DNA from: Tridacna crocea
Lineage: Eukaryota; Mollusca; Bivalvia; Cardiida; Cardiidae
Direction: 5' to 3'
DNA length: 64,000 nucleotides
NCBI GenBank assembly: GCA_943736015.1
Contig: OX031060.1
Location: forward strand, 22,769,231 to 22,833,230
Positions 20,021 to 64,000 of this stretch are shown in pieces (the stretch's first letter is position 1; the number at the start of each line of letters is the position of its first letter). Position numbers and translations under genes: made by a program. Below the pieces are notes generated by a model. The model was not told the DNA's origin. It worked only from the letters and a program-made list of their open reading frames with translations, and made no database searches.

Positions 20021-20456
20021 GAATTATGCTGATGATGTTTCTTGCACTTCATCAGATGTTAAAGATTATGTCAACAAAAATGAAGGTTACTATTTTTTGG
20101 TGTTTTAACGCCGACTTGAACATTACTTGAATGTAACTAATGGTGCCTGTGAATTTCTATAGATATGAAAACCGAGAGACAGCTACACAGGCAGTGAGTG
20201 TGGGAGGGAGGGAGTTTAAGAAAGGGTTTGATTTTGACATTTTACTTTAGAGTGGAAAGATTGTATTGTGGATGAAGAAATTGATAAATGTGTCAGGCGA
20301 ATGACAGAAAATGTAGTGCAAGATTGTAATAGGCATGTGTTGGGTTTAATAAGTGTTACCTGCATTGAATGAAGGATCCATTAAAAGAGATATCCATGTT
20401 GTTATAAAAGATGGCGATTTAAAGGGCTGGCTGTAGGGGGAGGTGGAGGCCAGGGG

Positions 20457-22865
20457 GATAACTTTTTACCAGTACTTCGCACAATATTGTTCCCATTGAC
20501 ACTGGCAGCCTTTCTCACATAGCCTCGTCGAAAGAATTATGAGTGCTGAGATAAGATTAAATCCTGTCGCAATAATCGTCATCAATTCTATAGAGCATGT
20601 TCTCAGTGTAAGCAAATGTGTCCTTAGTCAGTAGATTTTACTTTCATCTGAAGAAGGGTGTTTGAGAAGGGTTTTGATTTTGACATTGTTACTTCAGAGT
20701 GGAAAGATTGTATTGTGGATGAAGAAATTGATAAATGTGTCAGGCTAATGACAGAAAAGGTAGTACTAGATTGTAATAGGCATGTGTTGGGTTTAATATG
20801 TGTTACCTGCATTGAATGAAAGATCCATTAAATGAGATATCCATGTTGTTATAAAAGATGGTGATTTAAAGGGCTGGCTGTAAGGGGAGGTGGAGGTCAG
20901 GATAAAACCTTTTACCAGTACTTCGCACAATATTGTTCCCATTGACACTGGCAGCCTTTGTCAAATAGATTCGTGGAAAGAATTATGAGTGCTGAGATAA
21001 GATTAAATCTTGTCGCAAAAATCATCATGAATTCTAAAGAGCATATTCTCAGTCTAAATAGATGTATCCTTAGTCCGCAGATTTTACTTTCACCTGCGAA
21101 AGGGAGTTTGAGAGGTTTTTTGACATTTTTACTTTATAGTGGAAAGATTGTATTGTGGATTAAGAAACTGATAAATGTGTAAAGCTGATGACAGAAAAGC
21201 TTCATGTAGAGTGTAGTAGGCATGTGTTCGGTTTAATAAACGTTACCTGCATTGAATGAAGGATCCGATCCATTAAATGAGACATCCAAGTTGTTATAAA
21301 TTGTGATTTAAAGGGCTGGCTGTAAGGGGAGATGGAGGCAAGTGGAATAACTTTTTACCAGTACTTCGCATACTATTGTTCCCATTGATACTGGCAGCGT
21401 TTTTCACATAGCCTTGTGGAAAGAATTATGAGTGCTGAGATAAGATTAAATCCTGTCGCAATAATCGTCTTTAATTCTATAGAGCATATTCTCAGTCTAA
21501 GCAATTGTATCCTTAGTCCGCAGATTTTACTTTCACCGGAGAAAGGGAGTTTGAGAAAGGTTTTGATATTGACATTTCCACTTTATAGTGGAAAGATTAT
21601 ATTGTGGATGAAGAAATTGATAAATGTGTAAGGGTAATGACAAAAGCTAGTGCTAGATTGTAATGTGTTGGGTTTTATATGTGTTACCTGCATTGACTGA
21701 AGGATCCATTAAATGAGATATCCATGTTGTTTTAAAAGATGGCGATTTAAAGTGCTGGCTGTATGGGGAGGTTGGGGTAGGGATAGAACTTTTTACCAGT
21801 ACTCCGCACAATATTGTTGCTATTGACACTGGCAGCCTTTTTTTACAAAGTCTCGTCGAAATAATTATGAGTGCTGAGATAAGATTAAATCCTGTCAGAA
21901 TAATCGTCATCAATTCTATAAAGTATATTCTCAGTGTAAGCAAATGTATTATCAGTCGGCAGATTTTACTTTCACTTGAGGAAGGGAGTTTGACAAACGT
22001 TTTGATTTTGACATTTTTACTTTAGAGTGGAAAGATTGTATTGTGGATGAAGAAATTCATAAATGCGTGAGGCTAATGACAGAAAAGCTTCTGGAAGATT
22101 GTAATAGGCATGTGCTGGGTTTAATAAGTGTTACCTGCATTGACTGAAGGATCCATTGAATGAAATACCCATGTTGTTATAAAAGATGGCGATTTACAGG
22201 GCTGGCTGTAAGGGGAGGTGGAGGCCAGGGAGATAACTTTTTACCAGTACTTCGCACAATATTGTTCCTATTGACACTGGGAACTTTTCTCACTTAGCCT
22301 CGTCGAAAGAATTATAAGCGCTGAGAAAAGATAAAATCCTGTCGCAATAATCGTCATTAATTTTATAGAGCTTATTCTCGGTCTAAATAAATGTATCCTT
22401 AGTCCGCAGATTTTACTTTCACTTGAGGAAGGGAGTTTGACAAACGTTTTGATTTTGACATTTTTTACTTTAAGAGTGGAATGATTATATTGTGGATGAA
22501 GAAATTGATAAATGTGTGAGGCTAATGATAGAAAAGCTAATGCTGGATTGTAATAGGCATGTGTTGGTTTTAATAAGTGTTACCTGCATTGAATGAAGGA
22601 TCCATTAAATGAGATATCCATGTTGTTATAAAAGATGGTGATTTATAGGGCTGGCTTTAAGGGGAGGTGGAGGCCAGGGGATAACTTTTTACCAGTACTT
22701 CGCACAGTATTGCTTCCATTGACACTGGCAGCCTTTCTCACATACCCTCGTCGAAAGAATTATGAGTACTGAGATAAGATTAAATCCTGTCGCAATAATT
22801 ATCATCAATTCTATAGAGCATATTCTCAGTCTAAGCAAATGTAGTCGGCAGATTTTAATTTCACC
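20457..22865. repeat. ~445-bp tandem subrepeat block, unit 1
   Basis: ACCAGTACTTCGCAC-type starts lie at 20468, 20914, 21357, 21795, 22243 and 22691, spaced 446, 443, 438, 448 and 448 bp. Each subrepeat is a SINE-derived piece (GAGTGCTGAGATAAGATTAA, CCTGTCGCAATAATCGTC) fused to a piece of the preceding unique segment (TTGACATTTTTACTTT, GGAAAGATTGTATTGTGGAT, ATTAAATGAGATATCCATG, AAAGGGCTGGCTGTAAGGGG). A weak further start is at about 23121. Conserved short frames such as one starting MSAEIRLNPV are by-products. Confidence 0.92.
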
Positions 22866-24043
22866 TAGGGGGATACATTTCCAGTCTGTATCTATTTATT
22901 CCTGGAAGGGTTGTTATGTGCAAAAAGACATTGTAACTGTTTGTAAAGAACAATGATGGAAAAAAAAAAAAAAAACACGAAATTTGTGAGCAGTAGATTT
23001 TGATAGCTATGTGCTTAGAATTTGCAGAAGTTAATTTCAAGAATATCGATATTTTCTAGACAGTTTTGGATTCAATTAAAAAAAGTTGTAAACTATTTTG
23101 AGGGAGATCAGTGCCTTCTTTTACCAGTACTTTGCACAATATTGTTCCCATTGGCACTTGCTGCTTTCTTTGATCCGAGTCTACAAACGCTTCAGAATCA
23201 ACCAGTTCCTTGTTTCTGATACTTCATTCAGCTTTAATGTTAGTCACTGAGATAAAACTTACCTCTGGAATTATTCGATATGATTAACCACTTGTAACCA
23301 TTTTTGGTCCCTTGTATGTGTGTTTCTGTAAGATGTATCGTCGGTCTGTGAAATGCAAATGTCTAGAAATTTGATTTTATTTTCAATTTAAGGAAATGCC
23401 ATGCGTTACCCCCTTCAATTTGTTCGATTTACCTTCAGTCGAAGTGTTGTACATTTAGTACGAGAAATATTTCTTTTTGTTTCAGTTTACACCTTTAGCT
23501 GTAATTGCTTGAAATTGCTTGTCAGTAGGCCCTAAAACTGTATTTCTACCTTTTTTTGACAGTACAAGTTCTTAAACCAGTACCCCCAGTTGGCGATTTC
23601 AAACCCACAAGGCCTAAAACCAACCAACAGGCAGTTGCAAGCATATTGGGCCCTGGAATTGTATCCTCAGTTCGTGGAATGTTTCCCCAATCTATTTCAA
23701 ATCCTCGTAGACTTTGAAATTGTTCTATACCCAGTTGAATGTACACCCAGGCCCTAAACCACTGCCTCACTCTCGTGGTATTGTTTGCACAGTTTGCCCA
23801 TACACTTTTTTCCTGACATGTACTTAAAATCTGTAAGATTTCAGAGAGAATCCCAAATTTAACTTGTCTTCCAGTCTTAAAACATTAGTCAGCCCAATGA
23901 ACCCAAGTTAGCAACTGAACACCCCCAGTCTATGAGTCCCTCGGATACACCATAAGGCCCTGAAGCTGTGTTCTGTCTGAAAATCCACCCTTTTTCAATT
24001 CCCTTACCTTCTTGATGTACCCACAGTTCGAAGATGTCCATTG
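22866..24043. other. Unclassified unit segment after the subrepeats
   Basis: It recurs in every unit. It starts with ATTCCTGGAAGGGTTGTTATG and an A run (22960 area). A degraded subrepeat start follows near 23121, and then ~800 bp of sequence with recurring GGCCCT motifs (about 23530, 23650, 23751 and 23955), each near ACTGTAT/ATTGTAT and CAGT. No coding frame is supported. Confidence 0.55.
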
Positions 24044-24222
24044 GTTACTGCAACAGCTCGCGTTATGTTATTTTAGGAATCGAGACGTAGCCTTGGTGAG
24101 ATGTTACTGCAACTGTTTGCGTTATGGTATTTCAGGAATCGAGATGGTAGCCTTGGTGAGATGTTACTGCAACTGTTTGCGTTATGGTATTTCAGGAATC
24201 GAGATGGTAGCCTTGGTGAGAT
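24044..24222. repeat. 60-bp minisatellite, three copies (unit 2)
   Basis: Copies of 59, 60 and 60 bp start GTTACTGCAAC and contain GCGTTATG, AGGAATCGAGA and AGCCTTGGTGAGAT. The first copy differs from the two identical later ones (CAGCTCGCG versus CTGTTTGCG). Other positions: one copy at 16157-16215, two at 32238-32356, two at 40376-40494, three at 48494-48672 and two at 56689-56807. Confidence 0.93.
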
Positions 24223-24664
24223 GTATCAGTAAGCTATAAACCAGTGTCCTTCCAGAGATTTTACTCCCTACCTGTTAGCCTGCAATCCCCTGTCGGAAAG
24301 ATATTCGCTTGGATCCTTGTACTTCATCTCAGACGGTGAAAGATATTCTCAGTTTGATGCTCCTTCCAATCTTGTAACAATGTCCCTTCTATTATTTCAA
24401 ACCAATGCCGTATGCCTGTATCCGTGGTCTGTCAGTTGGACAGATATAACCTCAGAATTTACAACTATGCCCTCACCGGTGATTTAGCCCCAGTCAGCTT
24501 GTTTATTCTGCTTCCTTCAAATTAGAACGTAACTTAATTGAATGTACCTTCCAACGATAAAGCTATGCCCTGTTGTTTCACCGATAAGTCTTTGGCCTCA
24601 ACGTCTTCTTTATGATCTTAACCCTTAGTCTGAACGGCCTGAAATAATGTATTCGCCCTCATGT

Positions 24665-25310
24665 TTCATCTCACACACTCTATCTCTTCTCCTTTTCTTT
24701 ATTTATTTCTATCCCTCTTTTTGCAATTTCTGTTTTTCTTCACCTCTCTCCATTTAATTTTGTGTATCTCTATTGTTTCTCTTTCTCTGTGTCTCTCACA
24801 CTCTATCTACTGCCTTCCGAACTCTTTTTTACTACTCTCTGTCCCTCAACATCTTTCTCTCAACACTGTTTTCCACGCTCAGTCTCTCGCTGTTTCTCTG
24901 TTTCTCTGTCTGTTTGTCTGTCTCTCTCGCTTTCTGTCTTTCTCTTGCTCTGTGTATCACTCTATACCCCTTTCCATTTCTATTCCTGCTCTTCTTTTAT
25001 TTCTTTCCTCTTTCTACCTGTATCTCACTGCCTTCTTTCACACAGTCTCTTTATCTCTGTTGCTTTCTGTCTCTTCCGCTATTCAACCATCTTCTGTCTC
25101 ATTTTCCTATCACTCCCTATTCTGTTATGTTCTCTCTGTCTCTCTTTATTTCTCTTTGCTTCCTGCAAACTTTACTCTTGTCTCTCCATCCTATCAATCT
25201 CTTTCGCTTTTTTCCCTATTATCTATCTTACTATCTATATATCTATCTCTATCTGTCTATCTATCTATCTATCAATCTATCTATCTATCTATCTATCTGT
25301 CTATCTATAA
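24665..25310. repeat. Pyrimidine tract, unit 2
   Basis: Same block as in unit 1, ending in a (TCTA)n run with a TCAA interruption. The CTCAACATC variant near 24847 is shared only with unit 5. Pyrimidine/purine strand bias this long can form triplex (H-DNA) under negative supercoiling; that is inference. Confidence 0.9.
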
Positions 25311-26091
25311 AGACTGCTTTCTCTGACCACACGATGTCCATCCTTTTCCTCCAAAAATGTACTTCCTACAATAAATTAGCTTCTTTTCTTCATATCTTCC
25401 TCAGTCTGCATGATTAATCGTTTCTCATTCGATATGATGCTCCTTCAGTCCGTAATTTTGAGTGTAATCTAACTATATTATCATTCGAACATTTTAGAAT
25501 GAAATGTTATGGTGTTACTAGCACATTTGAGACATCCTGGCAAGATCTTACAAGATTACGTAATCACCCTGTAGATTTCTACATACGACCAATTTAAATT
25601 CCCTATCGACATCAGCTATTTACCTAATGAATGCCGAAAAAGCCAAGGTTCCCATTTTATGATCTAAAGCATCTATCTATTGGAAATAAGTCATAAAAAT
25701 AAACGTAGGATTCTCAATGCTATAAGTGTGCAGTATTGATTGAAGAGTGTTAAAAGTTCGATTTCAATATTAGTTCAGTTCATATTGCGGCGGCCCGTGA
25801 ACTTGTCCTCTCCTGCAATTACTTTTACCAGTATTCCGCACAATATTCTTTCCAAGGCACTGACTACTTTTCAACATAAGAATCGTCAAAATAATGATAA
25901 AGGATGAGAAATGAATCATATCGCAATGACTGTAAGCAATTTGCGGAAAAAATCGACCGAGGCGGGAATAAAACTAGCAGCTCCGTGTTCTCGATTTTTT
26001 TATGGTTCTCTTTATCCAGTACTCATCGTAATATTATATCCACTGGCTGCTGCCTCACATGCTCAATGTCATAAACATCAAAACATTATTC

Positions 26092-26133
<42 letters not shown>

Positions 26134-28649
26134 TTTAAATGGAAAGTTGGAAAGCGCTTTTGATTTCGACACTTTTACCTTATAGTAGCAGGGTTGCACT
26201 TTGGATAAAGAAATTGTTAAGTTTGGAAAGATTAATGACAGAAAAGAGAATTTTATGTTTCGTCCTATTTTAATAGGTATGCGTTAAAAAGTGTTCTGAA
26301 AGTAAATATAAGGGTTAATGTTTTAGCCGTCGTCCTCTTTTCCACGTAATTACCGTTAAAACAATGAACAGCACTGAGACAGCAGACGGGCAATTGATTT
26401 CATCAAATCTTGCGAACTAGGGATTGGCTACCCCCTTGTCTCTAGAACTACGGATAAACGACTGAGTTATCGAACTAGTGTTTGACAATCGATTGATTGA
26501 TTGATTGATTGACTATATGTGTTTAACACCGTTTTCAACGATATTCGAGTTATATTGCGGCGGCCAGTTCTCTTGCCTATGCGTTCCTATAGTTTCAGTA
26601 ACTAGTACTTTTCACGATATTCTTCCCAAGCCATTGACTGCTTTTCCACATAATTATAGTCAAAACTGCTGCTCAGAAAAATTAATGCTACCACAGTGAG
26701 CATTATCAACCCTCGGAAAGAAATGACCGAGCAGGGGATACAAACCAGCCAAGCAGTGCCTCAAGCTCCGGGCAATGCAGACCGAATACCTTTTTAAGAA
26801 TCTTTGGAAGGTGAAGACAATGTGTTGATTTGAAAATGCTGTGAAGTATTTCAGGTAAATAAAAGAAGGGGGACTGAATTGGATGATTGATTGATTGCAT
26901 GTGGTTTAACACCGTTTTCAACAATATTTCAATTATATCGCGGCGGCCAGTGCACCTACCCATACTTTACTGAAGGTTCAGTAACCAGTCCTTTGTATGA
27001 TATCTTCAAAATGCAAATTACTCCTTTTCAACATAACTATTATTAAAAGTGGTTTCGAGAGGCTAGCGAAGAACCAATCCTGTCGCAAAAATTATTATCA
27101 AACCTCGGAAAGACATGGCCGAGTAGGGGAATCAAACCAGCTTACCCATGTCTCAAGTTCTATAGGCTATCGACCGAATTGATATTCGAAAATCTCTGTA
27201 GTGAAAGAAAAGTTTTGATTTTGGAATGGTGTGAAAGATTTTCAGATTTATCAAAGAAAGGTAACTAATTTGAATGGAAAAAAAAGATGTTTTCCTGAAC
27301 TCTTCAAGAGTTTGCTATAACTTAACACAAAGCCATGGCGTTTTTTCAACGCTTTTTAATAATTGCTTTGATGATGATGTTGATGATTATAATAATGGTG
27401 ATGGTAGTTTCGATGGTTGAGTTGGTAGTGATGGTGGTAAAGCCGATACCGGATTTAGTAGTGGGGATAAATGTGTTTGTTTTCTTGGTGTTTTAAGGCC
27501 GACTTGAACATTACTTGTATGTTACTAATTGTGCACCTGGATTTTTAGAGACATTAAAACCGAGAGACAGCAACAGAGAGGCAGTGAGTGTGAGAGGGAG
27601 TGAGTTTGAGAAAGGTTTTAAATTTAACAATATTTACTTAATAGTGGAAAGGTCGTATTGTGGATGAAGAAATTGTTAAATTTGTAAGCTAATGACAGAA
27701 AAGCGAAATATCTATACTGTGCTAGATTTCAATAGGCATGTGTTGGCTTTGATATGTGTTACCTGCATTGAATGAAGGATCCATTAAATGAGATACCCTT
27801 GTTATTATAAAAGATTGAGATTTAAAGGGCTGGCTGTAAGGGGAGGTGGAGGCCAGGGAAATTCATCGGACTTTGGTAAAATTTGAATTTGTTTTGTTGC
27901 TTTTAGTCTATTGTGTTTTTAGTCATATTGGATTTCAGTCATATGAGATATATCAGGGCGTCATTTGCATCTATCAAAGCTGTGTCGGTATTTTATTTAC
28001 CAGTACATTTGCACATTATTCCAAACCAATGGATGCTTTCCTACATCCATCAATATTTTTTTGGGGAAAAAAAACTGTTAGTGACGAGAAAGTAATATAT
28101 CATGTCGCAGTGACTCATCAAACCTCAGATAAAAATTGCAACAGCTTGGGAATCGAACCTGTGAACCCCTATTTTACAACCGCCGTTTGTCATGAGGTGA
28201 GCAACCAAGCTTAGAATTATGCTGATGATGTTTCTTGCACTTCATCAGATGTTAAAGATTATGTCAACAAAAATGAAGGTTACTATTTTTTGGTGTTTTA
28301 ACGCCGACTTGAACATTACTTGAATGTAACTAATGGTGCCTGTGAATTTCTATAGATATGAAAACAGAGAGACAGCTACACAGGCAGTGAGTGTGGGAGG
28401 GAGGGAGTTTAAGAAAGGGTTTGATTTTGACATTTTACTTTATAGTGGAAAGATTGTATTGTGGATGAAGAAATTGATAAATGTGTCAGGCGAATGACAG
28501 AAAATGTAGTGCAAGATTGTAATAGGCATGTGTTGGGTTTAATAAGTGTTACCTGCATTGAATGAAGGATCCATTAAAAGAGATATCCATGTTGTTATAA
28601 AAGATGGCGATTTAAAGGGCTGGCTGTAGGGGGAGGTGGAGGCCAGGGG

Positions 28650-31058
28650 GATAACTTTTTACCAGTACTTCGCACAATATTGTTCCCATTGACACTGGCA
28701 GCCTTTCTCACATAGCCTCGTCGAAAGAATTATGAGTGCTGAGATAAGATTAAATCCTGTCGCAATAATCGTCATCAATTCTATAGAGCATGTTCTCAGT
28801 GTAAGCAAATGTGTCCTTAGTCAGCAGATTTTACTTTCATCTGAAGAAGGGTGTTTGAGAAGGGTTTTGATTTTGACATTGTTACTTCAGAGTGGAAAGA
28901 TTGTATTGTGGATGAAGAAATTGATAAATGTGTCAGGCTAATGACAGAAAAGGTAGTACTAGATTGTAATAGGCATGTGTTGGGTTTAATATGTGTTACC
29001 TGCATTGAATGAAAGATCCATTAAATGAGATATCCATGTTGTTATAAAAGATGGTGATTTAAAGGGCTGGCTGTAAGGGGAGGTGGAGGTCAGGATAAAA
29101 CCTTTTACCAGTACTTCGCACAATATTGTTCCCATTGACACTGGCAGCCTTTGTCAAATAGATTCGTGGAAAGAATTATGAGTGCTGAGATAAGATTAAA
29201 TCTTGTCGCAAAAATCATCATGAATTCTAAAGAGCATATTCTCAGTCTAAATAGATGTATCCTTAGTCCGCAGATTTTACTTTCACCTGCGAAAGGGAGT
29301 TTGAGAGGTTTTTTGACATTTTTACTTTATAGTGGAAAGATTGTATTGTGGATTAAGAAATTGATAAATGTGTAAAGCTGATGACAGAAAAGCTTCATGT
29401 AGAGTGTAGTAGGCATGTGTTCGGTTTAATAAACGTTACCTGCATTGAATGAAGGATCCGATCCATTAAATGAGACATCCAAGTTGTTATAAATTGTGAT
29501 TTAAAGGGCTGGCTGTAAGGGGAGATGGAGGCAAGTGGAATAACTTTTTACCAGTACTTCGCATACTATTGTTCCCATTGATACTGGCAGCGTTTTTCAC
29601 ATAGCCTTGTGGAAAGAATTATGAGTGCTGATATAAGATTAAATCCTGTCGCAATAATCGTCTTTAATTCTATAGAGCATATTCTCAGTCTAAGCAATTG
29701 TATCCTTAGTCCGCAGATTTTACTTGCACCGGAGAAAGGGAGTTTGAGAAAGGTTTTGATATTGACATTTCCACTTTATAGTGGAAAGATTATATTGTGG
29801 ATGAAGAAATTGATAAATGTGTAAGGGTAATGACAAAAGCTAGTGCTAGATTGTAATGTGTTGGGTTTTATATGTGTTACCTGCATTGACTGAAGGATCC
29901 ATTAAATGAGATATCCATGTTGTTTTAAAAGATGGCGATTTAAAGTGCTGGCTGTATGGGGAGGTTGGGGTAGGGATAGAACTTTTTACCAGTACTCCGC
30001 ACAATATTGTTCCTATTGACACTGGCAGCCTTTTTTTACAAAGTCTCGTCGAAATATTTATGAGTGCTGAGATAAGATTAAATCCTGTCAGAATAATCGT
30101 CATCAATTCTATAAAGTATATTCTCAGTGTAAGCAAATGTATTATCAGTCGGCAGATTTTACTTTCACTTGAGGAAGGGAGTTTGACAAACGTTTTGATT
30201 TTGACATTTTTACTTTAGAGTGGAAAGATTGTATTGTGGATGAAGAAATTCATAAATGCGTGAGGCTAATGACAGAAAAGCTTCTGGAAGATTGTAATAG
30301 GCATGTGCTGGGTTTAATAAGTGTTACCTGCATTGACTGAAGGATCCATTGAATGAAATACCCATGTTGTTATAAAAGATGGCGATTTACAGGGCTGGCT
30401 GTAAGGGGAGGTGGAGGCCAGGGAGATAACTTTTTACCAGTACTTCGCACAATATTGTTCCTATTGACACTGGGAGCCTTTCTCACTTAGCCTTGTCGAA
30501 AGAATTATAAGCGCTGAGAAAAGATAAAATCCTGTCGCAATAATCGTCATTAATTTTATAGAGCTTATTCTCGGTCTAAATAAATGTATCCTTAGTCCGC
30601 AGATTTTACTTTCACTTGAGGAAGGGAGTTTGACAAACGTTTTGATTTTGACATTTTTTACTTTAAGAGTGGAATGATTATATTGTGGATGAAGAAATTG
30701 ATAAATGTGTGAGGCTAATGATAGAAAAGCTAATGCTGGATTGTAATAGGCATGTGTTGGTTTTAATAAGTGTTACCTGCATTGAATGAAGGATCCATTA
30801 AATGAGATATCCATGTTGTTATAAAAGATGGTGATTTATAGGGCTGGCTTTAAGGGGAGGTGGAGGCCAGGGGATAACTTTTTACCAGTACTTCGCACAG
30901 TATTGCTTCCATTGACACTGGCAGCCTTTCTCACATAGCCTCGTCGAAAGAATTATGAGTGCTGAGATAAGATTAAATCCTGTCGCAATAATTATCATCA
31001 ATTCTATAGAGCATATTCTCAGTCTAAGCAAATGTAGTCGGCAGATTTTAATTTCACC
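28650..31058. repeat. ~445-bp tandem subrepeat block, unit 2
   Basis: It has the same six-copy arrangement as unit 1. Variants shared only with unit 5: GCTGATATAAG near 29627 and TTACTTGCACC near 29722. Confidence 0.92.
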
Positions 31059-32799
31059 TAGGGGGATACATTTCCAGTCTGTATCTATTTATTCCTGGAA
31101 GGGTTGTTATGTGCAAAAAGACATTGTAACTGTTTGTAAAGAACAATGATGAAAAAAAAAAAAAAAAACCACGAAATTTGTGAGCAGTAGATTTTGATAG
31201 CTATGTGCTTAGAATTTGCAGAAGTTAATTTCAAGAATATCGATATTTTCTAGACAGTTTTGGATTCAATTAAAAAAAGTTGTAAACTATTTTGAGGGAG
31301 ATCAGTGCCTTCTTTTACCAGTACTTTGCACAATATTGTTCCCATTGGCACTTGCTGCTTTCTTTGATCCGAGTCTACAAACGCTTCAGAATCAACCAGT
31401 TCCTTGTTTCTGATACTTCATTCAGCTTTAATGTTAGTCACTGAGATAAAACTTACCTCTGGAATTATTCGATATGATTAACCACTTGTAACCATTTTTG
31501 GTCCCTTGTATGTGTGTTTCTGTAAGATGTATCGTCGGTCTGTGAAATGCAAATGTCTAGAAATTTGATTTTATTTTCAATTTAAGGAAATGCCATGCGT
31601 TACCCCCTTCAATTTGTTCGATTTACCTTCAGTCGAAGTGTTGTACATTTAGTACGAGAAATATTTCTTTTTGTTTGAGTTTACACCTTTAGCTGTAATT
31701 GCTTGAAATTGCTTGTCAGTAGGCCCTAAAACTGTATTTCTACCTTTTTTTGACAGTACAAATTCTTAAACCAGTACCCCCAGTTGGCGATTTCAAACCC
31801 ACAAGGCCTAAAACCAACCAACAGGCAGTTGCAAGCATATTGGGCCCTGGAATTGTATCCTCAGTTCGTGGAATGTTTCCCCAATCTATTTCAAATCCTC
31901 GTAGACTTTGAAATTGTTCTATACCCAGTTGAATGTACACCCAGGCCCTAAGCCACTGCCTCACTCTCGTGGTATTGTTTGCACAGTTTGCCCATACACT
32001 TTTTTCCTGACATGTACTTAAAATCTGTAAGATTTCAGAGAGAATCCCAAATTTAACTTGTCTTCCAGTCTTAAAACATTAGTCAGCCCAATGAACCCAA
32101 GTTAGCAACTGAACACCCCCAGTCTATGAGTCCCTCGGATACACCATAAGGCCCTGAAGCTGTGTTCTGTCTGAAAATCCACCCTTTTTCAATTCCCTTA
32201 CCTTCTTGATGTACCCACAGTTCGAAGATGTCCATTGGTTACTGCAACAGCTCGCGTTATGTTATTTTAGGAATCGAGACGTAGCCTTGGTGAGATGTTA
32301 CTGCAACTGTTTGCGTTATGGTATTTCAGGAATCGAGATGGTAGCCTTGGTGAGATGTATCAGTAAGCTGTAAACCAGTGTCCTTCCAGAGATTTTACTC
32401 CCTACCTGTTAGCCTGCAATCCCCAGTCGGAAAGATATTCGCTTGGATCCTTGTACTTCATCTCAGACGGTGAAAGACATTCTCAGTTTGATGCTCCTTC
32501 CAATCTTGTAACAATGTCCCTTCTATTATTTCAAACCAATGCCGTATGCCTGTATCCGTGGTCTGTCAGTTGGACAGATATAACCTCAGAATTTACAACT
32601 ATGCCCTCACCGGTGATTTAGCCCCAGTCAGCTTGTTTATTCTGCTTCCTTCAAATTAGAACGTAACTTAATTGAATGTACCTTCCAACGATAAAGCTAT
32701 GCCCCTGTTGTTTCACCGATAAGTCTTTGGCCTCAACGTCTTCTTTATGATCTTAACCCTTAGTCTGAACGGCCTGAAATAATGTATTCGCCCTCATGT

Positions 32800-33443
32800 T
32801 TCATCTCACACACTCTATCTCTTCTCCTTTTCTTTATTTATTTCTATCCCTCTTTTTGCAATTTCTGTTTTTCTTCACCTCTCTCCATTTAATTTTGTGT
32901 ATCTCTATTGTTTCTCTTTCTCTGTGTCTCTCACACTCTATCTACTGCCTTCCGAACTCTTTTTTACTACTCTCTGTCCCTCATTTTATCTTTCTCTCAA
33001 CACTGTTTTCCACGCTCAGTCTCTCGCTGTTTCTCTGTTTCTCTGTCTGTTTGTCTGTCTCTCTCGCTTTCTGTCTTTCTCTTGCTCTGTGTATCACTCT
33101 ATACCCCTTTCCATTTCTATTCCTGCTCTTCTTTTATTTCTTTCCTCTTTCTACCTGTATCTCACTGCCTTCTTTCACACAGTCTCTTTATCTCTGTTGC
33201 TTTCTGTCTCTTCCGCTATTCAACCATCTTCTGTCTCATTTTCCTATCACTCCCTATTCTGTTATGTTCTCTCTGTCTCTCTTTATTTCTCTTTGCTTCC
33301 TGCAAACTTTACTCTTGTCTCTCCATCCTATCAATCTCTTTCGCTTTTTTCCCTATTATCTATCTTACTATCTATATATCTATCTCTATCTGTCTATCTA
33401 TCTATCTATCAATCTATCTATCTATCTATCTGTCTATCTATAA
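32800..33443. repeat. Pyrimidine tract, unit 3
   Basis: It has the CTCATTTTATC variant, and its (TCTA)n run is one repeat shorter than in unit 2. Confidence 0.9.
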
Positions 33444-34225: not shown

Positions 34226-34273
<48 letters not shown>

Positions 34274-42362: not shown

Positions 42363-42396
<34 letters not shown>

Positions 42397-50542: not shown

Positions 50543-50584
<42 letters not shown>

Positions 50585-53100
50585 TTTAAATGGAAAGTTG
50601 GAAAGCGCTTTTGATTTCGACACTTTTACCTTATAGTAGCAGGGTTGCACTTTGGATAAAGAAATTGTTAAGTTTGGAAAGATTAATGACAGAAAAGAGA
50701 ATTTTATGTTTCGTCCTATTTTAATAGGTATGCGTTAAAAAGTGTTCTGAAAGTAAATATAAGGGTTAATGTTTTAGCCGTCGTCCTCTTTTCCACGTAA
50801 TTACCGTTAAAACAATGAACAGCACTGAGACAGCAGACGGGCAATTGATTTCATCAAATCTTGCGAACTAGGGATTGGCTACCCCCTTGTCTCTAGAACT
50901 ACGGATAAACGACTGAGTTATCGAACTAGTGTTTGACAATCGATTGATTGATTGATTGATTGACTATATGTGTTTAACACCGTTTTCAACGATATTCGAG
51001 TTATATTGCGGCGGCCAGTTCTCTTGCCTATGCGTTCCTATAGTTTCAGTAACTAGTACTTTTCACGATATTCTTCCCAAGCCATTGACTGCTTTTCCAC
51101 ATAATTATAGTCAAAACTGCTGCTCAGAAAAATTAATGCTACCACAGTGAGCATTATCAACCCTCGGAAAGAAATGACCGAGCAGGGGATACAAACCAGC
51201 CAAGCAGTGCCTCAAGCTCCGGGCAATGCAGACCGAATACCTTTTTAAGAATCTTTGGAAGGTGAAGACAATGTGTTGATTTGAAAATGCTGTGAAGTAT
51301 TTCAGGTAAATAAAAGAAGGGGGACTGAATTGGATGATTGATTGATTGCATGTGGTTTAACACCGTTTTCAACAATATTTCAATTATATCGCGGCGGCCA
51401 GTGCACCTACCCATACTTTACTGAAGGTTCAGTAACCAGTCCTTTGTATGATATCTTCAAAATGCAAATTACTCCTTTTCAACATAACTATTATTAAAAG
51501 TGGTTTCGAGAGGCTAGCGAAGAACCAATCCTGTCGCAAAAATTATTATCAAACCTCGGAAAGACATGGCCGAGTAGGGGAATCAAACCAGCTTACCCAT
51601 GTCTCAAGTTCTATAGGCTATCGACCGAATTGATATTCGAAAATCTCTGTAGTGAAAGAAAAGTTTTGATTTTGGAATGGTGTGAAAGATTTTCAGATTT
51701 ATCAAAGAAAGGTAACTAATTTGAATGGAAAAAAAAGATGTTTTCCTGAACTCTTCAAGAGTTTGCTATAACTTAACACAAAGCCATGGCGTTTTTTCAA
51801 CGCTTTTTAATAATTGCTTTGATGATGATGTTGATGATTATAATAATGGTGATGGTAGTTTCGATGGTTGAGTTGGTAGTGATGGTGGTAAAGCCGATAC
51901 CGGATTTAGTAGTGGGGATAAATGTGTTTGTTTTCTTGGTGTTTTAAGGCCGACTTGAACATTACTTGTATGTTACTAATTGTGCACCTGGATTTTTAGA
52001 GACATTAAAACCGAGAGACAGCAACAGAGAGGCAGTGAGTGTGAGAGGGAGTGAGTTTGAGAAAGGTTTTAAATTTAACAATATTTACTTAATAGTGGAA
52101 AGGTCGTATTGTGGATGAAGAAATTGTTAAATTTGTAAGCTAATGACAGAAAAGCGAAATATCTATACTGTGCTAGATTTCAATAGGCATGTGTTGGCTT
52201 TGATATGTGTTACCTGCATTGAATGAAGGATCCATTAAATGAGATACCCTTGTTATTATAAAAGATTGAGATTTAAAGGGCTGGCTGTAAGGGGAGGTGG
52301 AGGCCAGGGAAATTCATCGGACTTTGGTAAAATTTGAATTTGTTTTGTTGCTTTTAGTCTATTGTGTTTTTAGTCATATTGGATTTCAGTCATATGAGAT
52401 ATATCAGGGCGTCATTTGCATCTATCAAAGCTGTGTCGGTATTTTATTTACCAGTACATTTGCACATTATTCCAAACCAATGGATGCTTTCCTACATCCA
52501 TCAATATTTTTTTGGGGAAAAAAAACTGTTAGTGACGAGAAAGTAATATATCATGTCGCAGTGACTCATCAAACCTCAGATAAAAATTGCAACAGCTTGG
52601 GAATCGAACCTGTGAACCCCTATTTTACAACCGCCGTTTGTCATGAGGTGAGCAACCAAGCTTAGAATTATGCTGATGATGTTTCTTGCACTTCATCAGA
52701 TGTTAAAGATTATGTCAACAAAAATGAAGGTTACTATTTTTTGGTGTTTTAACGCCGACTTGAACATTACTTGAATGTAACTAATGGTGCCTGTGAATTT
52801 CTATAGATATGAAAACAGAGAGACAGCTACACAGGCAGTGAGTGTGGGAGGGAGGGAGTTTAAGAAAGGGTTTGATTTTGACATTTTACTTTATAGTGGA
52901 AAGATTGTATTGTGGATGAAGAAATTGATAAATGTGTCAGGCGAATGACAGAAAATGTAGTGCAAGATTGTAATAGGCATGTGTTGGGTTTAATAAGTGT
53001 TACCTGCATTGAATGAAGGATCCATTAAAAGAGATATCCATGTTGTTATAAAAGATGGCGATTTAAAGGGCTGGCTGTAGGGGGAGGTGGAGGCCAGGGG

Positions 53101-55509
53101 GATAACTTTTTACCAGTACTTCGCACAATATTGTTCCCATTGACACTGGCAGCCTTTCTCACATAGCCTCGTCGAAAGAATTATGAGTGCTGAGATAAGA
53201 TTAAATCCTGTCGCAATAATCGTCATCAATTCTATAGAGCATGTTCTCAGTGTAAGCAAATGTGTCCTTAGTCAGCAGATTTTACTTTCATCTGAAGAAG
53301 GGTGTTTGAGAAGGGTTTTGATTTTGACATTGTTACTTCAGAGTGGAAAGATTGTATTGTGGATGAAGAAATTGATAAATGTGTCAGGCTAATGACAGAA
53401 AAGGTAGTACTAGATTGTAATAGGCATGTGTTGGGTTTAATATGTGTTACCTGCATTGAATGAAAGATCCATTAAATGAGATATCCATGTTGTTATAAAA
53501 GATGGTGATTTAAAGGGCTGGCTGTAAGGGGAGGTGGAGGTCAGGATAAAACCTTTTACCAGTACTTCGCACAATATTGTTCCCATTGACACTGGCAGCC
53601 TTTGTCAAATAGATTCGTGGAAAGAATTATGAGTGCTGAGATAAGATTAAATCTTGTCGCAAAAATCATCATGAATTCTAAAGAGCATATTCTCAGTCTA
53701 AATAGATGTATCCTTAGTCCGCAGATTTTACTTTCACCTGCGAAAGGGAGTTTGAGAGGTTTTTTGACATTTTTACTTTATAGTGGAAAGATTGTATTGT
53801 GGATTAAGAAATTGATAAATGTGTAAAGCTGATGACAGAAAAGCTTCATGTAGAGTGTAGTAGGCATGTGTTCGGTTTAATAAACGTTACCTGCATTGAA
53901 TGAAGGATCCGATCCATTAAATGAGACATCCAAGTTGTTATAAATTGTGATTTAAAGGGCTGGCTGTAAGGGGAGATGGAGGCAAGTGGAATAACTTTTT
54001 ACCAGTACTTCGCATACTATTGTTCCCATTGATACTGGCAGCGTTTTTCACATAGCCTTGTGGAAAGAATTATGAGTGCTGATATAAGATTAAATCCTGT
54101 CGCAATAATCGTCTTTAATTCTATAGAGCATATTCTCAGTCTAAGCAATTGTATCCTTAGTCCGCAGATTTTACTTGCACCGGAGAAAGGGAGTTTGAGA
54201 AAGGTTTTGATATTGACATTTCCACTTTATAGTGGAAAGATTATATTGTGGATGAAGAAATTGATAAATGTGTAAGGGTAATGACAAAAGCTAGTGCTAG
54301 ATTGTAATGTGTTGGGTTTTATATGTGTTACCTGCATTGACTGAAGGATCCATTAAATGAGATATCCATGTTGTTTTAAAAGATGGCGATTTAAAGTGCT
54401 GGCTGTATGGGGAGGTTGGGGTAGGGATAGAACTTTTTACCAGTACTCCGCACAATATTGTTCCTATTGACACTGGCAGCCTTTTTTTACAAAGTCTCGT
54501 CGAAATATTTATGAGTGCTGAGATAAGATTAAATCCTGTCAGAATAATCGTCATCAATTCTATAAAGTATATTCTCAGTGTAAGCAAATGTATTATCAGT
54601 CGGCAGATTTTACTTTCACTTGAGGAAGGGAGTTTGACAAACGTTTTGATTTTGACATTTTTACTTTAGAGTGGAAAGATTGTATTGTGGATGAAGAAAT
54701 TCATAAATGCGTGAGGCTAATGACAGAAAAGCTTCTGGAAGATTGTAATAGGCATGTGCTGGGTTTAATAAGTGTTACCTGCATTGACTGAAGGATCCAT
54801 TGAATGAAATACCCATGTTGTTATAAAAGATGGCGATTTACAGGGCTGGCTGTAAGGGGAGGTGGAGGCCAGGGAGATAACTTTTTACCAGTACTTCGCA
54901 CAATATTGTTCCTATTGACACTGGGAGCCTTTCTCACTTAGCCTTGTCGAAAGAATTATAAGCGCTGAGAAAAGATAAAATCCTGTCGCAATAATCGTCA
55001 TTAATTTTATAGAGCTTATTCTCGGTCTAAATAAATGTATCCTTAGTCCGCAGATTTTACTTTCACTTGAGGAAGGGAGTTTGACAAACGTTTTGATTTT
55101 GACATTTTTTACTTTAAGAGTGGAATGATTATATTGTGGATGAAGAAATTGATAAATGTGTGAGGCTAATGATAGAAAAGCTAATGCTGGATTGTAATAG
55201 GCATGTGTTGGTTTTAATAAGTGTTACCTGCATTGAATGAAGGATCCATTAAATGAGATATCCATGTTGTTATAAAAGATGGTGATTTATAGGGCTGGCT
55301 TTAAGGGGAGGTGGAGGCCAGGGGATAACTTTTTACCAGTACTTCGCACAGTATTGCTTCCATTGACACTGGCAGCCTTTCTCACATAGCCTCGTCGAAA
55401 GAATTATGAGTGCTGAGATAAGATTAAATCCTGTCGCAATAATTATCATCAATTCTATAGAGCATATTCTCAGTCTAAGCAAATGTAGTCGGCAGATTTT
55501 AATTTCACC
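53101..55509. repeat. ~445-bp tandem subrepeat block, unit 5
   Basis: It matches the unit 2 block, including its private variants. Confidence 0.92.
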
Positions 55510-57250
55510 TAGGGGGATACATTTCCAGTCTGTATCTATTTATTCCTGGAAGGGTTGTTATGTGCAAAAAGACATTGTAACTGTTTGTAAAGAACAATGA
55601 TGAAAAAAAAAAAAAAAAACCACGAAATTTGTGAGCAGTAGATTTTGATAGCTATGTGCTTAGAATTTGCAGAAGTTAATTTCAAGAATATCGATATTTT
55701 CTAGACAGTTTTGGATTCAATTAAAAAAAGTTGTAAACTATTTTGAGGGAGATCAGTGCCTTCTTTTACCAGTACTTTGCACAATATTGTTCCCATTGGC
55801 ACTTGCTGCTTTCTTTGATCCGAGTCTACAAACGCTTCAGAATCAACCAGTTCCTTGTTTCTGATACTTCATTCAGCTTTAATGTTAGTCACTGAGATAA
55901 AACTTACCTCTGGAATTATTCGATATGATTAACCACTTGTAACCATTTTTGGTCCCTTGTATGTGTGTTTCTGTAAGATGTATCGTCGGTCTGTGAAATG
56001 CAAATGTCTAGAAATTTGATTTTATTTTCAATTTAAGGAAATGCCATGCGTTACCCCCTTCAATTTGTTCGATTTACCTTCAGTCGAAGTGTTGTACATT
56101 TAGTACGAGAAATATTTCTTTTTGTTTGAGTTTACACCTTTAGCTGTAATTGCTTGAAATTGCTTGTCAGTAGGCCCTAAAACTGTATTTCTACCTTTTT
56201 TTGACAGTACAAATTCTTAAACCAGTACCCCCAGTTGGCGATTTCAAACCCACAAGGCCTAAAACCAACCAACAGGCAGTTGCAAGCATATTGGGCCCTG
56301 GAATTGTATCCTCAGTTCGTGGAATGTTTCCCCAATCTATTTCAAATCCTCGTAGACTTTGAAATTGTTCTATACCCAGTTGAATGTACACCCAGGCCCT
56401 AAGCCACTGCCTCACTCTCGTGGTATTGTTTGCACAGTTTGCCCATACACTTTTTTCCTGACATGTACTTAAAATCTGTAAGATTTCAGAGAGAATCCCA
56501 AATTTAACTTGTCTTCCAGTCTTAAAACATTAGTCAGCCCAATGAACCCAAGTTAGCAACTGAACACCCCCAGTCTATGAGTCCCTCGGATACACCATAA
56601 GGCCCTGAAGCTGTGTTCTGTCTGAAAATCCACCCTTTTTCAATTCCCTTACCTTCTTGATGTACCCACAGTTCGAAGATGTCCATTGGTTACTGCAACA
56701 GCTCGCGTTATGTTATTTTAGGAATCGAGACGTAGCCTTGGTGAGATGTTACTGCAACTGTTTGCGTTATGGTATTTCAGGAATCGAGATGGTAGCCTTG
56801 GTGAGATGTATCAGTAAGCTGTAAACCAGTGTCCTTCCAGAGATTTTACTCCCTACCTGTTAGCCTGCAATCCCCAGTCGGAAAGATATTCGCTTGGATC
56901 CTTGTACTTCATCTCAGACGGTGAAAGACATTCTCAGTTTGATGCTCCTTCCAATCTTGTAACAATGTCCCTTCTATTATTTCAAACCAATGCCGTATGC
57001 CTGTATCCGTGGTCTGTCAGTTGGACAGATATAACCTCAGAATTTACAACTATGCCCTCACCGGTGATTTAGCCCCAGTCAGCTTGTTTATTCTGCTTCC
57101 TTCAAATTAGAACGTAACTTAATTGAATGTACCTTCCAACGATAAAGCTATGCCCCTGTTGTTTCACCGATAAGTCTTTGGCCTCAACGTCTTCTTTATG
57201 ATCTTAACCCTTAGTCTGAACGGCCTGAAATAATGTATTCGCCCTCATGT

Positions 57251-57894
57251 TTCATCTCACACACTCTATCTCTTCTCCTTTTCTTTATTTATTTCTATCC
57301 CTCTTTTTGCAATTTCTGTTTTTCTTCACCTCTCTCCATTTAATTTTGTGTATCTCTATTGTTTCTCTTTCTCTGTGTCTCTCACACTCTATCTACTGCC
57401 TTCCGAACTCTTTTTTACTACTCTCTGTCCCTCATTTTATCTTTCTCTCAACACTGTTTTCCACGCTCAGTCTCTCGCTGTTTCTCTGTTTCTCTGTCTG
57501 TTTGTCTGTCTCTCTCGCTTTCTGTCTTTCTCTTGCTCTGTGTATCACTCTATACCCCTTTCCATTTCTATTCCTGCTCTTCTTTTATTTCTTTCCTCTT
57601 TCTACCTGTATCTCACTGCCTTCTTTCACACAGTCTCTTTATCTCTGTTGCTTTCTGTCTCTTCCGCTATTCAACCATCTTCTGTCTCATTTTCCTATCA
57701 CTCCCTATTCTGTTATGTTCTCTCTGTCTCTCTTTATTTCTCTTTGCTTCCTGCAAACTTTACTCTTGTCTCTCCATCCTATCAATCTCTTTCGCTTTTT
57801 TCCCTATTATCTATCTTACTATCTATATATCTATCTCTATCTGTCTATCTATCTATCTATCAATCTATCTATCTATCTATCTGTCTATCTATAA
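57251..57894. repeat. Pyrimidine tract, unit 6
   Basis: It has the same form as unit 3. Confidence 0.9.
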
Positions 57895-58676
57895 AGACTG
57901 CTTTCTCTGACCACACGATGTCCATCCTTTTCCTCCAAAAATGTACTTCCTACAATAAATTAGCTTCTTTTCTTCATATCTTCCTCAGTCTGCATGATTA
58001 ATCGTTTCTCATTCGATATGATGCTCCTTCAGTCCGTAATTTTGAGTGTAATCTAACTATATTATCATTCGAATATTTTAGAATGAAATGTTATGGTGTT
58101 ACTAGCACATTTGAGACATCCTGGCAAGATCTTACAAGATTACGTAATCACCCTGTAGATTTCTACATACGACCAATTTAAATTCCCTATCGACATCAGC
58201 TATTTACCTAATGAATGCCGAAAAAGCCAAGGTTCCCATTTTATGATCTAAAGCATCTATCTATTGGAAATAAGTCATAAAAATAAACGTAGGATTCTCA
58301 ATGCTATAAGTGTGCAGTATTGATTGAAGAGTGTTAAAAGTTCGATTTCAATATTAGTTCAGTTCATATTGCGGCGGCCCGTGAACTTGTCCTCTCCTGC
58401 AATTACTTTTACCAGTATTCCGCACAATATTCTTTCCAAGGCACTGACTACTTTTCAACATAAGAATCGTCAAAATAATGATAAAGGATGAGAAATGAAT
58501 CATATCGCAATGACTGTAAGCAATTTGCGGAAAAAAATCGACCGAGGCGGGAATAAAACTAGCAGCTCCGTGTTCTCGATTTTTTTATGGTTCTCTTTAT
58601 CCAGTACTCATCGTAATATTATATCCACTGGCTGCTGCCTCACATGCTCAATGTCATAAACATCAAAACATTATTC

Positions 58677-58724
<48 letters not shown>

Positions 58725-61238
58725 TTTAAATGGAAAGTTGGAAAGCGCTTTTGATTTCGACACTTTTACCTTATAGTAGTAGGATTGCACTTTGGATAAA
58801 GAAATTGTTAAGTTTGGAAAGATTAATGACAGAAAAGAGAATTTTATGTTTCGTCCTATTTTAATAGGTATGCGTTAAAAAGTGTTCTGAAAGTAAATAT
58901 AAGGGTTAATGTTTTAGCCGTCGTCCTCTTTTCCACGTAATTACCGTTAAAACAATGAACAGCACTGAGACAGCAGACGGGCAATTGATTTCATCAAATC
59001 TTGCGAACTAGGGATTGGCTACCCCCTTGTCTCTAGAACTACGGATAAACGACTGAGTTATCGAACTAGTGTTTGACAATCGATTGATTGATTGATTGAC
59101 TATATGTGTTTAACACCGTTTTCAACGATATTCGAGTTATATTGCGGCGGCCAGTTCTCTTGCCTATGCGTTCCTATAGTTTCAGTAACTAGTACTTTTC
59201 ACGATATTCTTCCCAAGCCATTGACTGCTTTTCCACATAATTATAGTCAAAACTGCTGCTCAGAAAAATTAATGCTACCACAGTGAGCATTATCAACCCT
59301 CGGAAAGAAATGACCGAGCAGGGGATACAAACCAGCCAAGCAGTGCCTCAAGCTCCGGGCAATGCAGACCGAATACCTTTTTAAGAATCTTTGGAAGGTG
59401 AAGTCAATGTGTTGATTTGAAAATGCTGTGAAGTATTTCAGGTAAATAAAAGAAGGGGGACTGAATTGGATGATTGATTGATTGCATGTGGTTTAACACC
59501 GTTTTCAACAATATTTCAATTATATCGCGGCGGCCAGTGCACCTACCCATACTTTACTGAAGGTTCAGTAACCAGTCCTTTGTATGATATCTTCAAAATG
59601 CAAATTACTCCTTTTCAACATAACTATTATTAAAAGTGGTTTCGAGAGGCTAGCGAAGAACCAATCCTGTCGCAAAAATTATTATCAAACCTCGGAAAGA
59701 CATGGCCGAGTAGGGGAATCAAACCAGCTTACCCATGTCTCAAGTTCTATAGGCTATCGACCGAATTGATATTCGAAAATCTCTGTAGTGAAAGAAAAGT
59801 TTTGATTTTGGAATGGTGTGAAAGATTTTCAGATTTATCAAAGAAAGGTAACTAATTTGAATGGAAAAAAAAGATGTTTTCCTGAACTCTTCAAGAGTTT
59901 GCTATAACTTAACACAAAGCCATGGCGTTTTTTCAACGCTTTTTAATAATTGCTTTGATGATGATGTTGATGATTATAATAATGGTGATGGTAGTTTCGA
60001 TGGTTGAGTTGGTAGTGATGGTGGTAAAGCCGATACCGGATTTAGTAGTGGGGATAAATGTGTTTGTTTTCTTGGTGTTTTAAGGCCGACTTGAACATTA
60101 CTTGTATGTTACTAATTGTGCACCTGGATTTTTAGAGACATTAAAACCGAGAGACAGCAACAGAGAGGCAGTGAGTGTGAGAGGGAGTGAGTTTGAGAAA
60201 GGTTTTAAATTTAACAATATTTACTTAATAGTGGAAAGGTCGTATTGTGGATGAAGAAATTGTTAAATTTGTAAGCTAATGACAGAAAAGCGAAATATCT
60301 ATACTGTGCTAGATTTCAATAGGCATGTGTTGGCTTTGATATGTGTTACCTGCATTGAATGAAGGATCCATTAAATGAGATACCCTTGTTATTATAAAAG
60401 ATTGAGATTTAAAGGGCTGGCTGTAAGGGGAGGTGGAGGCCAGGGAAATTCATCGGACTTTGGTAAAATTTGAATTTGTTTTGTTGCTTTTAGTCTATTG
60501 TGTTTTTAGTCATATTGGATTTCAGTCATATGAGATATATCAGGGCGTCATTTGCATCTATCAAAGCTGTGTCGGTATTTTATTTACCAGTACATTTGCA
60601 CATTATTCCAAACCAATGGATGCTTTCCTACATCCATCAATATTTTTTTGGGGAAAAAAAAAACTGTTAGTGACGAGAAAGTAATATATCATGTCGCAGT
60701 GACTCATCAAACCTCAGATAAAAATTGCAACAGCTTGGGAATCGAACCTGTGAACCCCTATTTTACAACCGCCGTTTGTCATGAGGTGAGCAACCAAGCT
60801 TAGAATTATGCTGATGATGTTTCTTGCACTTCATCAGATGTTAAAGATTATGTCAACAAAAATGAAGGTTACTATTTTTTGGTGTTTTAACGCCGACTTG
60901 AACATTACTTGAATGTAACTAATGGTGCCTGTGAATTTCTATAGATATGAAAACAGAGAGACAGCTACACAGGCAGTGAGTGTGGGAGGGAGGGAGTTTA
61001 AGAAAGGGTTTGATTTTGACATTTTACTTTATAGTGGAAAGATTGTATTGTGGATGAAGAAATTGATAAATGTGTCAGGCGAATGACAGAAAATGTAGTG
61101 CAAGATTGTAATAGGCATGTGTTGGGTTTAATAAGTGTTACCTGCATTGAATGAAGGATCCATTAAAAGAGATATCCATGTTGTTATAAAAGATGGCGAT
61201 TTAAAGGGCTGGCTGTAGGGGGAGGTGGAGGCCAGGGG

Positions 61239-63647
61239 GATAACTTTTTACCAGTACTTCGCACAATATTGTTCCCATTGACACTGGCAGCCTTTCTCAC
61301 ATAGCCTCGTCGAAAGAATTATGAGTGCTGAGATAAGATTAAATCCTGTCGCAATAATCGTCATCAATTCTATAGAGCATGTTCTCAGTGTAAGCAAATG
61401 TGTCCTTAGTCAGCAGATTTTACTTTCATCTGAAGAAGGGTGTTTGAGAAGGGTTTTGATTTTGACATTGTTACTTCAGAGTGGAAAGATTGTATTGTGG
61501 ATGAAGAAATTGATAAATGTGTCAGGCTAATGACAGAAAAGGTAGTACTAGATTGTAATAGGCATGTGTTGGGTTTAATATGTGTTACCTGCATTGAATG
61601 AAAGATCCATTAAATGAGATATCCATGTTGTTATAAAAGATGGTGATTTAAAGGGCTGGCTGTAAGGGGAGGTGGAGGTCAGGATAAAACCTTTTACCAG
61701 TACTTCGCACAATATTGTTCCCATTGACACTGGCAGCCTTTGTCAAATAGATTCGTGGAAAGAATTATGAGTGCTGAGATAAGATTAAATCTTGTCGCAA
61801 AAATCATCATGAATTCTAAAGAGCATATTCTCAGTCTAAATAGATGTATCCTTAGTCCGCAGATTTTACTTTCACCTGCGAAAGGGAGTTTGAGAGGTTT
61901 TTTGACATTTTTACTTTATAGTGGAAAGATTGTATTGTGGATTAAGAAATTGATAAATGTGTAAAGCTGATGACAGAAAAGCTTCATGTAGAGTGTAGTA
62001 GGCATGTGTTCGGTTTAATAAACGTTACCTGCATTGAATGAAGGATCCAATCCATTAAATGAGACATCCAAGTTGTTATAAATTGTGATTTAAAGGGCTG
62101 GCTGTAAGGGGAGATGGAGGCAAGTGGAATAACTTTTTACCAGTACTTCGCATACTATTGTTCCCATTGATACTGGCAGCGTTTTTCACATAGCCTTGTG
62201 GAAAGAATTATGAGTGCTGAGATAAGATTAAATCCTGTCGCAATAATCGTCTTTAATTCTATAGAGCATATTCTCAGTCTAAGCAATTGTATCCTTAGTC
62301 CGCAGATTTTACTTTCACCGGAGAAAGGGAGTTTGAGAAAGGTTTTGATATTGACATTTCCACTTTATAGTGGAAAGATTATATTGTGGATGAAGAAATT
62401 GATAAATGTGTAAGGGTAATGACAAAAGCTAGTGCTAGATTGTAATGTGTTGGGTTTTATATGTGTTACCTGCATTGACTGAAGGATCCATTAAATGAGA
62501 TATCCATGTTGTTTTAAAAGATGGCGATTTAAAGTGCTGGCTGTATGGGGAGGTTGGGGTAGGGATAGAACTTTTTACCAGTACTCCGCACAATATTGTT
62601 GCTATTGACACTGGCAGCCTTTTTTTACAAAGTCTCGTCGAAATAATTATGAGTGCTGAGATAAGATTAAATCCTGTCAGAATAATCGTCATCAATTCTA
62701 TAAAGTATATTCTCAGTGTAAGCAAATGTATTATCAGTCGGCAGATTTTACTTTCACTTGAGGAAGGGAGTTTGACAAACGTTTTGATTTTGACATTTTT
62801 ACTTTAGAGTGGAAAGATTGTATTGTGGATGAAGAAATTCATAAATGCGTGAGGCTAATGACAGAAAAGCTTCTGGAAGATTGTAATAGGCATGTGCTGG
62901 GTTTAATAAGTGTTACCTGCATTGACTGAAGGATCCATTGAATGAAATACCCATGTTGTTATAAAAGATGGCGATTTACAGGGCTGGCTGTAAGGGGAGG
63001 TGGAGGCCAGGGAGATAACTTTTTACCAGTACTTCGCACAATATTGTTCCTATTGACACTGGGAGCCTTTCTCACTTAGCCTCGTCGAAAGAATTATAAG
63101 CGCTGAGAAAAGATAAAATCCTGTCGCAATAATCGTCATTAATTTTATAGAGCTTATTCTCGGTCTAAATAAATGTATCCTTAGTCCGCAGATTTTACTT
63201 TCACTTGAAGAAGGGAGTTTGACAAACGTTTTGATTTTGACATTTTTTACTTTAAGAGTGGAATGATTATATTGTGGATGAAGAAATTGATAAATGTGTG
63301 AGGCTAATGATAGAAAAGCTAATGCTGGATTGTAATAGGCATGTGTTGGTTTTAATAAGTGTTACCTGCATTGAATGAAGGATCCATTAAATGAGATATC
63401 CATGTTGTTATAAAAGATGGTGATTTATAGGGCTGGCTTTAAGGGGAGGTGGAGGCCAGGGGATAACTTTTTACCAGTACTTCGCACAGTATTGCTTCCA
63501 TTGACACTGGCAGCCTTTCTCACATACCCTCGTCGAAAGAATTATGAGTACTGAGATAAGATTAAATCCTGTCGCAATAATTATCATCAATTCTATAGAG
63601 CATATTCTCAGTCTAAGCAAATGTAGTCGGCAGATTTTAATTTCACC
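61239..63647. repeat. ~445-bp tandem subrepeat block, unit 6
   Basis: It matches the unit 3 block, including its private variants. Confidence 0.92.
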
Positions 63648-64000
63648 TAGGGGGATACATTTCCAGTCTGTATCTATTTATTCCTGGAAGGGTTGTTATG
63701 TGCAAAAAGACATTGTAACTGTTTGTAAAGAACAATGATGAAAAAAAAAAAAAAAAAACACGAAATTTGTGAGCAGTAGATTTTGATAGCTATGTGCTTA
63801 GAATTTGCAGAAGTTAATTTCAAGAATATCGATATTTTCTAGACAGTTTTGGATTCAATTAAAAAAAGTTGTAAACTATTTTGAGGGAGATCAGTGCCTT
63901 CTTTTACCAGTACTTTGCACAATATTGTTCCCATTGGCACTTGCTGCTTTCTTTGATCCGAGTCTACAAACGCTTCAGAATCAACCAGTTCCTTGTTTCT

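Follow-up and report, generated by a model that had tools for sequence, protein, structure and literature searches.

A megasatellite with a three-unit, 24.45-kb higher-order repeat in an assembly of Tridacna crocea

Array layout and composition of the unit

We analyzed a 64-kb stretch of Tridacna crocea DNA (hereafter, the window) and found a head-to-tail array of units of ~8.14 kb, which spans the region from ~16.2 kb to the window end (Table 1). All units are in direct orientation: four are full, the edge unit (U1) is nearly so and the sixth (U6) is cut. Units were delimited at a 30-mer common to five copies, and U1 was cut at the corresponding place. What the window shows is the left edge of the array, which probably extends beyond position 64000. 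Kilobase-scale units arranged head to tail are what defines a megasatellite or macrosatellite.

Table 1. Positions of the array units and of the main features within and beside them
Feature	Position	Strand	Remarks
Old diverged partial unit copy	11613..15247	+	BLASTN match to unit positions ~729-3702 with an identity of about 79-80%
End piece of the unit preceding U1	16157..16568	+	97.1% identical to U2 positions 7724-8135; recognizable left limit of the array
U1 (edge unit)	16569..24580	+	8012 bp
U2	24581..32715	+	8,135 bp
U3	32716..40853	+	8,138 bp
U4	40854..49031	+	8,178 bp; mosaic
U5	49032..57166	+	8135 bp; equal to U2
U6	57167..64000	+	6834 bp; cut by the window end; equal to U3
60-bp repeat in U1	24044..24224	+	Three copies; U4 counterpart at 48494-48674
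Pyrimidine-rich tract in U2	24643..25323	+	74-81% C+T in 250-base steps; CTAT microsatellite at its end
Three related SINE-like pieces in U2	26480..28200	+	~250-320 bp each; the pieces align with one another
Six ~447-bp repeats in U2	28397..31057	+	Detected by TRF; copies 83.8-92.3% identical

The unit combines SINE-like pieces with a pyrimidine-rich tract, an array of six ~447-bp repeats and several 60-bp repeats. One ~447-bp array was identified by TRF in each of the six units. The same program listed a CTAT run for U2-U6, absent from its listing for U1, and an AG run in U3 and U6 only. Two of the three SINE-like pieces of U2 contain, on the minus strand, a sequence resembling the tRNA B box with at most one mismatch. 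A total of 14 such matches were found, compared to 0.54 expected; 12 of them come from just two sites that recur in all six near-identical units, so the number of independent cases is small. Searches of viral contigs and of genome contigs with SINE-like patterns yielded no match in either set. The 60-bp repeat is present in 3, 2, 2, 3 and 2 copies in U1-U5, respectively (TRF). An earlier reading of the same DNA, made from the letters only (the sequence-only reading), had pointed out that these numbers differ between neighbors and agree three units apart, and the TRF counts agree at that spacing.

No gene was found in this megasatellite by the RNA searches or by a protein scan that covered some of its unspliced open frames. 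No Rfam family was matched at its gathering score in the 64-kb window, and no tRNA was predicted there by ARAGORN (bacterial code). An array of ribosomal, 5S, tRNA or snRNA genes was rejected on these grounds. A laxer Rfam scan of positions 1-33000 gave eight matches to miRNA or snoRNA families, all located within 5481-14873 and far below gathering scores. With regard to proteins, we searched Pfam with 10 of the 30 open frames of at least 60 aa in U2 and with 10 of the 31 open frames of at least 75 aa in positions 1-16568; none of the frames scanned in either set had a match above the cut-off, and the best match among them all was PF00507 (E 0.0044, 17.6 versus a cut-off of 23.3 bits). The 447-bp array of U2 contains many stops in each of the three plus-strand frames, and an array of coding units was dismissed for this reason and for the lack of a Pfam match above the cut-off in the scanned frames. 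Where the unit has its longest open frames, the DNA is pyrimidine-rich and none of the three plus-strand frames is closed.

Differences among units and the mosaic fourth unit

Pairs of 24-mers present 2-12 times were most often 24,451 bp apart (14,315 pairs), followed by 8,138 bp (8,112 pairs). When the window was aligned with itself by BLASTN, positions 17451-39549 matched 41916-64000 at 99.73% identity (22,105 columns, 34 mismatches, 7 gap openings), and the array shifted by one unit matched itself at 99.1-99.5%. Both the 24-mer distances and the self-match agree with the period of 24,451 bp claimed by the sequence-only reading. A base-by-base list for the 24.45-kb shift contained 41 differences, that is, 34 substitutions and 7 indels. 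Of the substitutions, 31 are located at or left of 19553 and the other three at 20250, 20632 and 24024; the rightmost difference of any kind is at 24568. Alignment of 24571-39549 with 49022-64000, which had been proposed as a check, gave zero differences over 14,979 bp, and it is the window end, not a mismatch, that stops the match. Approximately 1.8-1.9 triplet blocks lie within the window, with the identical stretch running off its end.

The sequence-only reading had reported only a few differences in the parts that it compared. The three that it named are real (a C run at 24568/49018, CACAG versus CATAG at 24024/48474 and an extra T at 46290), but its list was incomplete: positions 20250, 20632 and 22959 were missing, and so were the 31 substitutions up to and including 19553, which mostly fall before the start that it gave for the repeat.

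Comparison of complete units showed the same periodicity. No substitution was found between U2 and U5 (0/8,135) or between U3 and U6 (0/6,834), which are the two pairs among U2-U6 that lie three units apart. The other eight pairs differ by 11-29 substitutions: 23/8127, 13/8117, 29/8115 and 16/6823 for adjacent units, 29/8115, 23/8127 and 11/6813 for units two apart, and 16/6823 for the pair four apart. U2, U3 and U4 are mutually 0.16-0.36% apart. U1 was kept out of these counts because its left part is the old edge; its pairs with other units differ by 71-83 substitutions (72 for U1-U6, over a shorter stretch). Units thus diverge more inside a triplet than between triplets, and the structure is a higher-order repeat of period three in which units 2-3 recur as units 5-6, just as the sequence-only reading had it.

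U4 is a mosaic. Its comparison with U1 gave, from left to right, 36/879, 28/1234, 3/1463 and 4/4413 substitutions. To trace its parts we used ungapped alignment columns in which U4 matches exactly one of U1-U3, of which there are seven. U4 agrees with U3 alone at columns 1620, 1624 and 2248 in the left part and with U1 alone at columns 3808, 4803, 5919 and 5921 in the right part, and the two classes separate cleanly with no interleaving. A 3+4 split this clean arises by chance with a probability of 2/35 (2/56 when the 60-bp copy is counted as well), and we regard the split as evidence of moderate strength for a mosaic origin. As for indels, U4 has in common with U1 a poly(A) base and the presence of a third 60-bp copy, whereas it shares none with U3 alone. 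These sites place the switch in U4 between ~43076 and ~44625, which corresponds to 18619-20173 in U1.

Four of the seven sites (2248, 4803, 5919 and 5921) are polarized. The states shared by U1 and U4 at 4803, 5919 and 5921 are present in none of the six 447-bp paralogs of U2 and are therefore derived, which rules out that the kinship of U1 and U4 at these columns reflects shared ancestral states. At column 2248, the old left copy carries the state of U1 and U2; therefore, the state shared by U3 and U4 is derived. Within columns 2330-3800, U1, U2 and U3 are identical (0/1,463 for each pair), and U4 has private states at 2822, 2977 and 3186, with the old copy carrying the state of U4 at 2977. 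If the three private sites predate the exchange, the switch perhaps lies to the right of 3186 (44005-44625 in U4), which would narrow it from ~1.5 to ~0.6 kb. The right half of U1 does resemble U4, as the sequence-only reading had noted. For U4, an origin by crossover is a better reading than copying from U1.

Origin of the triplet

Unequal crossover is a general model for higher-order repeats (PMC8122249, in the part considered), and ordinary unequal exchange probably built the triplet of this megasatellite, possibly with a second round. In this model, sister chromatids or homologues exchange unequally, and the units multiply as a result. Had such an exchange been shifted by three units, it would have joined the left part of the unit behind U3 to the right part of U1 and so generated the mosaic U4; it would also have set a second copy of U2-U3 behind U4, and the outcome would be a 24.45-kb higher-order repeat. 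The pairs U2-U3/U5-U6 may have been renewed afterwards, by conversion or by another exchange in the same register: no difference separates these pairs though the right parts of U1 and U4 differ, which leaves a later exchange, a doubled assembly node or chance.

A narrower version, in which a single exchange sufficed and the U1-U4 differences are mutations, edge conversion or homopolymer consensus errors, appears rather doubtful to us; the likelihood we attach to it overlaps with that attached to unequal exchange in general. U4 is the product expected from one exchange, and the three U1-U4 indels to the right of the switch all fall in runs (T, A and C). The substitutions there are at columns 3885, 4267, 6595 and 7661. 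At 3885, three of the six 447-bp paralogs carry the state of U1, which could be a conversion or an old state, and 6595 borders a poly(A) run and is replaced by an indel in the pairwise list; whether either is a new mutation is doubtful. Nevertheless, 2-4 substitutions in 4.4 kb contrast with none in 15 kb. If both stretches are of the same age, the probability that all substitutions fall in the 4,413-bp part and none in the 14,979 bp is 0.0027 for four, 0.012 for three and ~0.05 for two. A wider count from column 2330 (7 in 5,876 bp) lowers it to 0.00014 and includes three sites that are possibly left of the switch. A single exchange thus fits less well, and we lean toward a doubled assembly node or a second round, by exchange or by conversion. 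The absence of differences over 14,979 bp limits divergence to no more than 0.02% (95%), which corresponds to an age under ~10,000-50,000 years or generations at assumed rates of 1e-8 to 2e-9. The very recent triplet duplication suggested by the sequence-only reading fits U2-U3 versus U5-U6, but a single date for everything is doubtful given the U1-U4 substitutions.

The doubled node mentioned above refers to an assembly loop, which the sequence-only reading had also considered. In this case, the reads would hold U1-U2-U3-U4 and a junction from U4 to a U2-like unit, while the U2-U3 node would have been written out twice during assembly, so that the order to the right of U4 and the copy number would be in doubt. 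The complete lack of differences over 14,979 bp, despite those between the right parts of U1 and U4, would be accounted for, and common accurate long reads are of about the same length as the identical stretch. However, a fresh duplication likewise yields identical copies. That U4 is U1 rewritten is ruled out, since U4 lacks the private variants of U1 (including its states at 3885 and 4267) and has its own states on both sides of the switch; the loop thus concerns U5-U6 only. Moreover, the path U3-U4-U2-like demands a real junction even for a loop, so that the three-unit cycle would be real and the copy number doubtful. Blockwise copying is an ordinary growth route for long tandem repeats, and for a 15-kb exact match we consider an assembly error unlikely, but a realistic concern. 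Far less probable is that a 24.45-kb extrachromosomal circle U2-U3-U4, or rolling-circle copies, were read together with the chromosomal array. The cycle U2-U3-U4-U2 agrees with the observed order, and rolling-circle amplification has been proposed for satellites (PMC8122249, in the part considered); however, no sequence feature requires it.

Returning to unequal exchange, the relationships among the repeats suggest stepwise growth of the array, from 447-bp repeats (8-16% apart) to 8.14-kb units and then to the 24.45-kb triplet. It is possible, although we propose this tentatively, that the megasatellite is switching its amplification unit from 8.14 to 24.45 kb, with a founding crossover that can be mapped to ~1.5 kb in U4 and a triplet that has already been renewed; in that case, the unit to the right of U6 should match U4. 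If real, the array would be a clear natural example of the beginning of a higher-order repeat at the kilobase scale, with a recombinant unit beside its likely parents. If instead an assembly loop produced the second copy, the case shows that exact repeats of ~15 kb in assemblies call for caution. Neither outcome alters general knowledge of tandem arrays.

Comparable repeats and the left edge

Gene-free megasatellites have been described in human, including a ~6-kb repeat at 4p11 with blocks of the 147-bp Acro satellite and 5.4-kb repeats at 19q13 with MER33 (PMC2588610). The array described here resembles both in being a kilobase-scale, apparently gene-free tandem repeat with putative transposable-element pieces, and resembles the 4p11 repeat also in its inner satellite blocks; the organism is different, and the likeness is drawn from descriptions. 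In the parts of that paper considered, higher-order repeats were reported for GAATG and VNTR arrays and not for the 4p11 and 19q13 megasatellites. Among bivalves, the oyster Crassostrea angulata has a satellite, CanSat15, with a monomer of 8,637 bp (PMC11136912), whose unit length is similar; the term "higher-order" does not occur in the main text of that paper. The organization in which units inside a block differ more than blocks do is shared with alpha-satellite higher-order repeats, as described in the part of PMC8122249 considered. However, alpha satellite has a 171-bp unit and monomers ~30% apart, compared to 8.14 kb and 0.16-0.36% (U2/U3/U4) here. An assignment to alpha satellite was rejected, as the inner repeat is ~447 bp and the unit 8.14 kb.

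The edge is the most diverged part of the array. Identity is uneven, with 97.1% at 16157-16568, 91.1% at 16569-17452 and rising values thereafter, and does not form a smooth gradient. U1 lacks 143 alignment columns at 17450-17451 that are present in U2-U6; the old copy also has sequence there, which suggests a deletion confined to the edge unit. At 16156-16157, the array starts inside a 60-bp repeat that is joined directly to a truncated SINE-like piece, and this repeat was perhaps involved in the rearrangement. Homology of the old partial copy to the unit stops just before the 447-bp array, which this copy may have lost or may never have contained, and the copy is interrupted by an inverted-repeat insertion. 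This MITE-like insertion (14019-14408) has 84-nt terminal inverted arms that are 80% complementary and is flanked on both sides by GATTTTAAT.

Other repeats were also observed in the left flank. A recurrent hairpin with arms of 31-33 nt (85-97% complementary) is present at 514-580, 5475-5539, 5808-5878 and 14795-14857, and the hairpins near 5.5, 6.0 and 14.8 kb gave miRNA-family matches far below Rfam gathering scores. In addition, repeats of 163 and 164 bp make up two short tandem arrays that lie apart, at 3672-4410 and 9962-10720.
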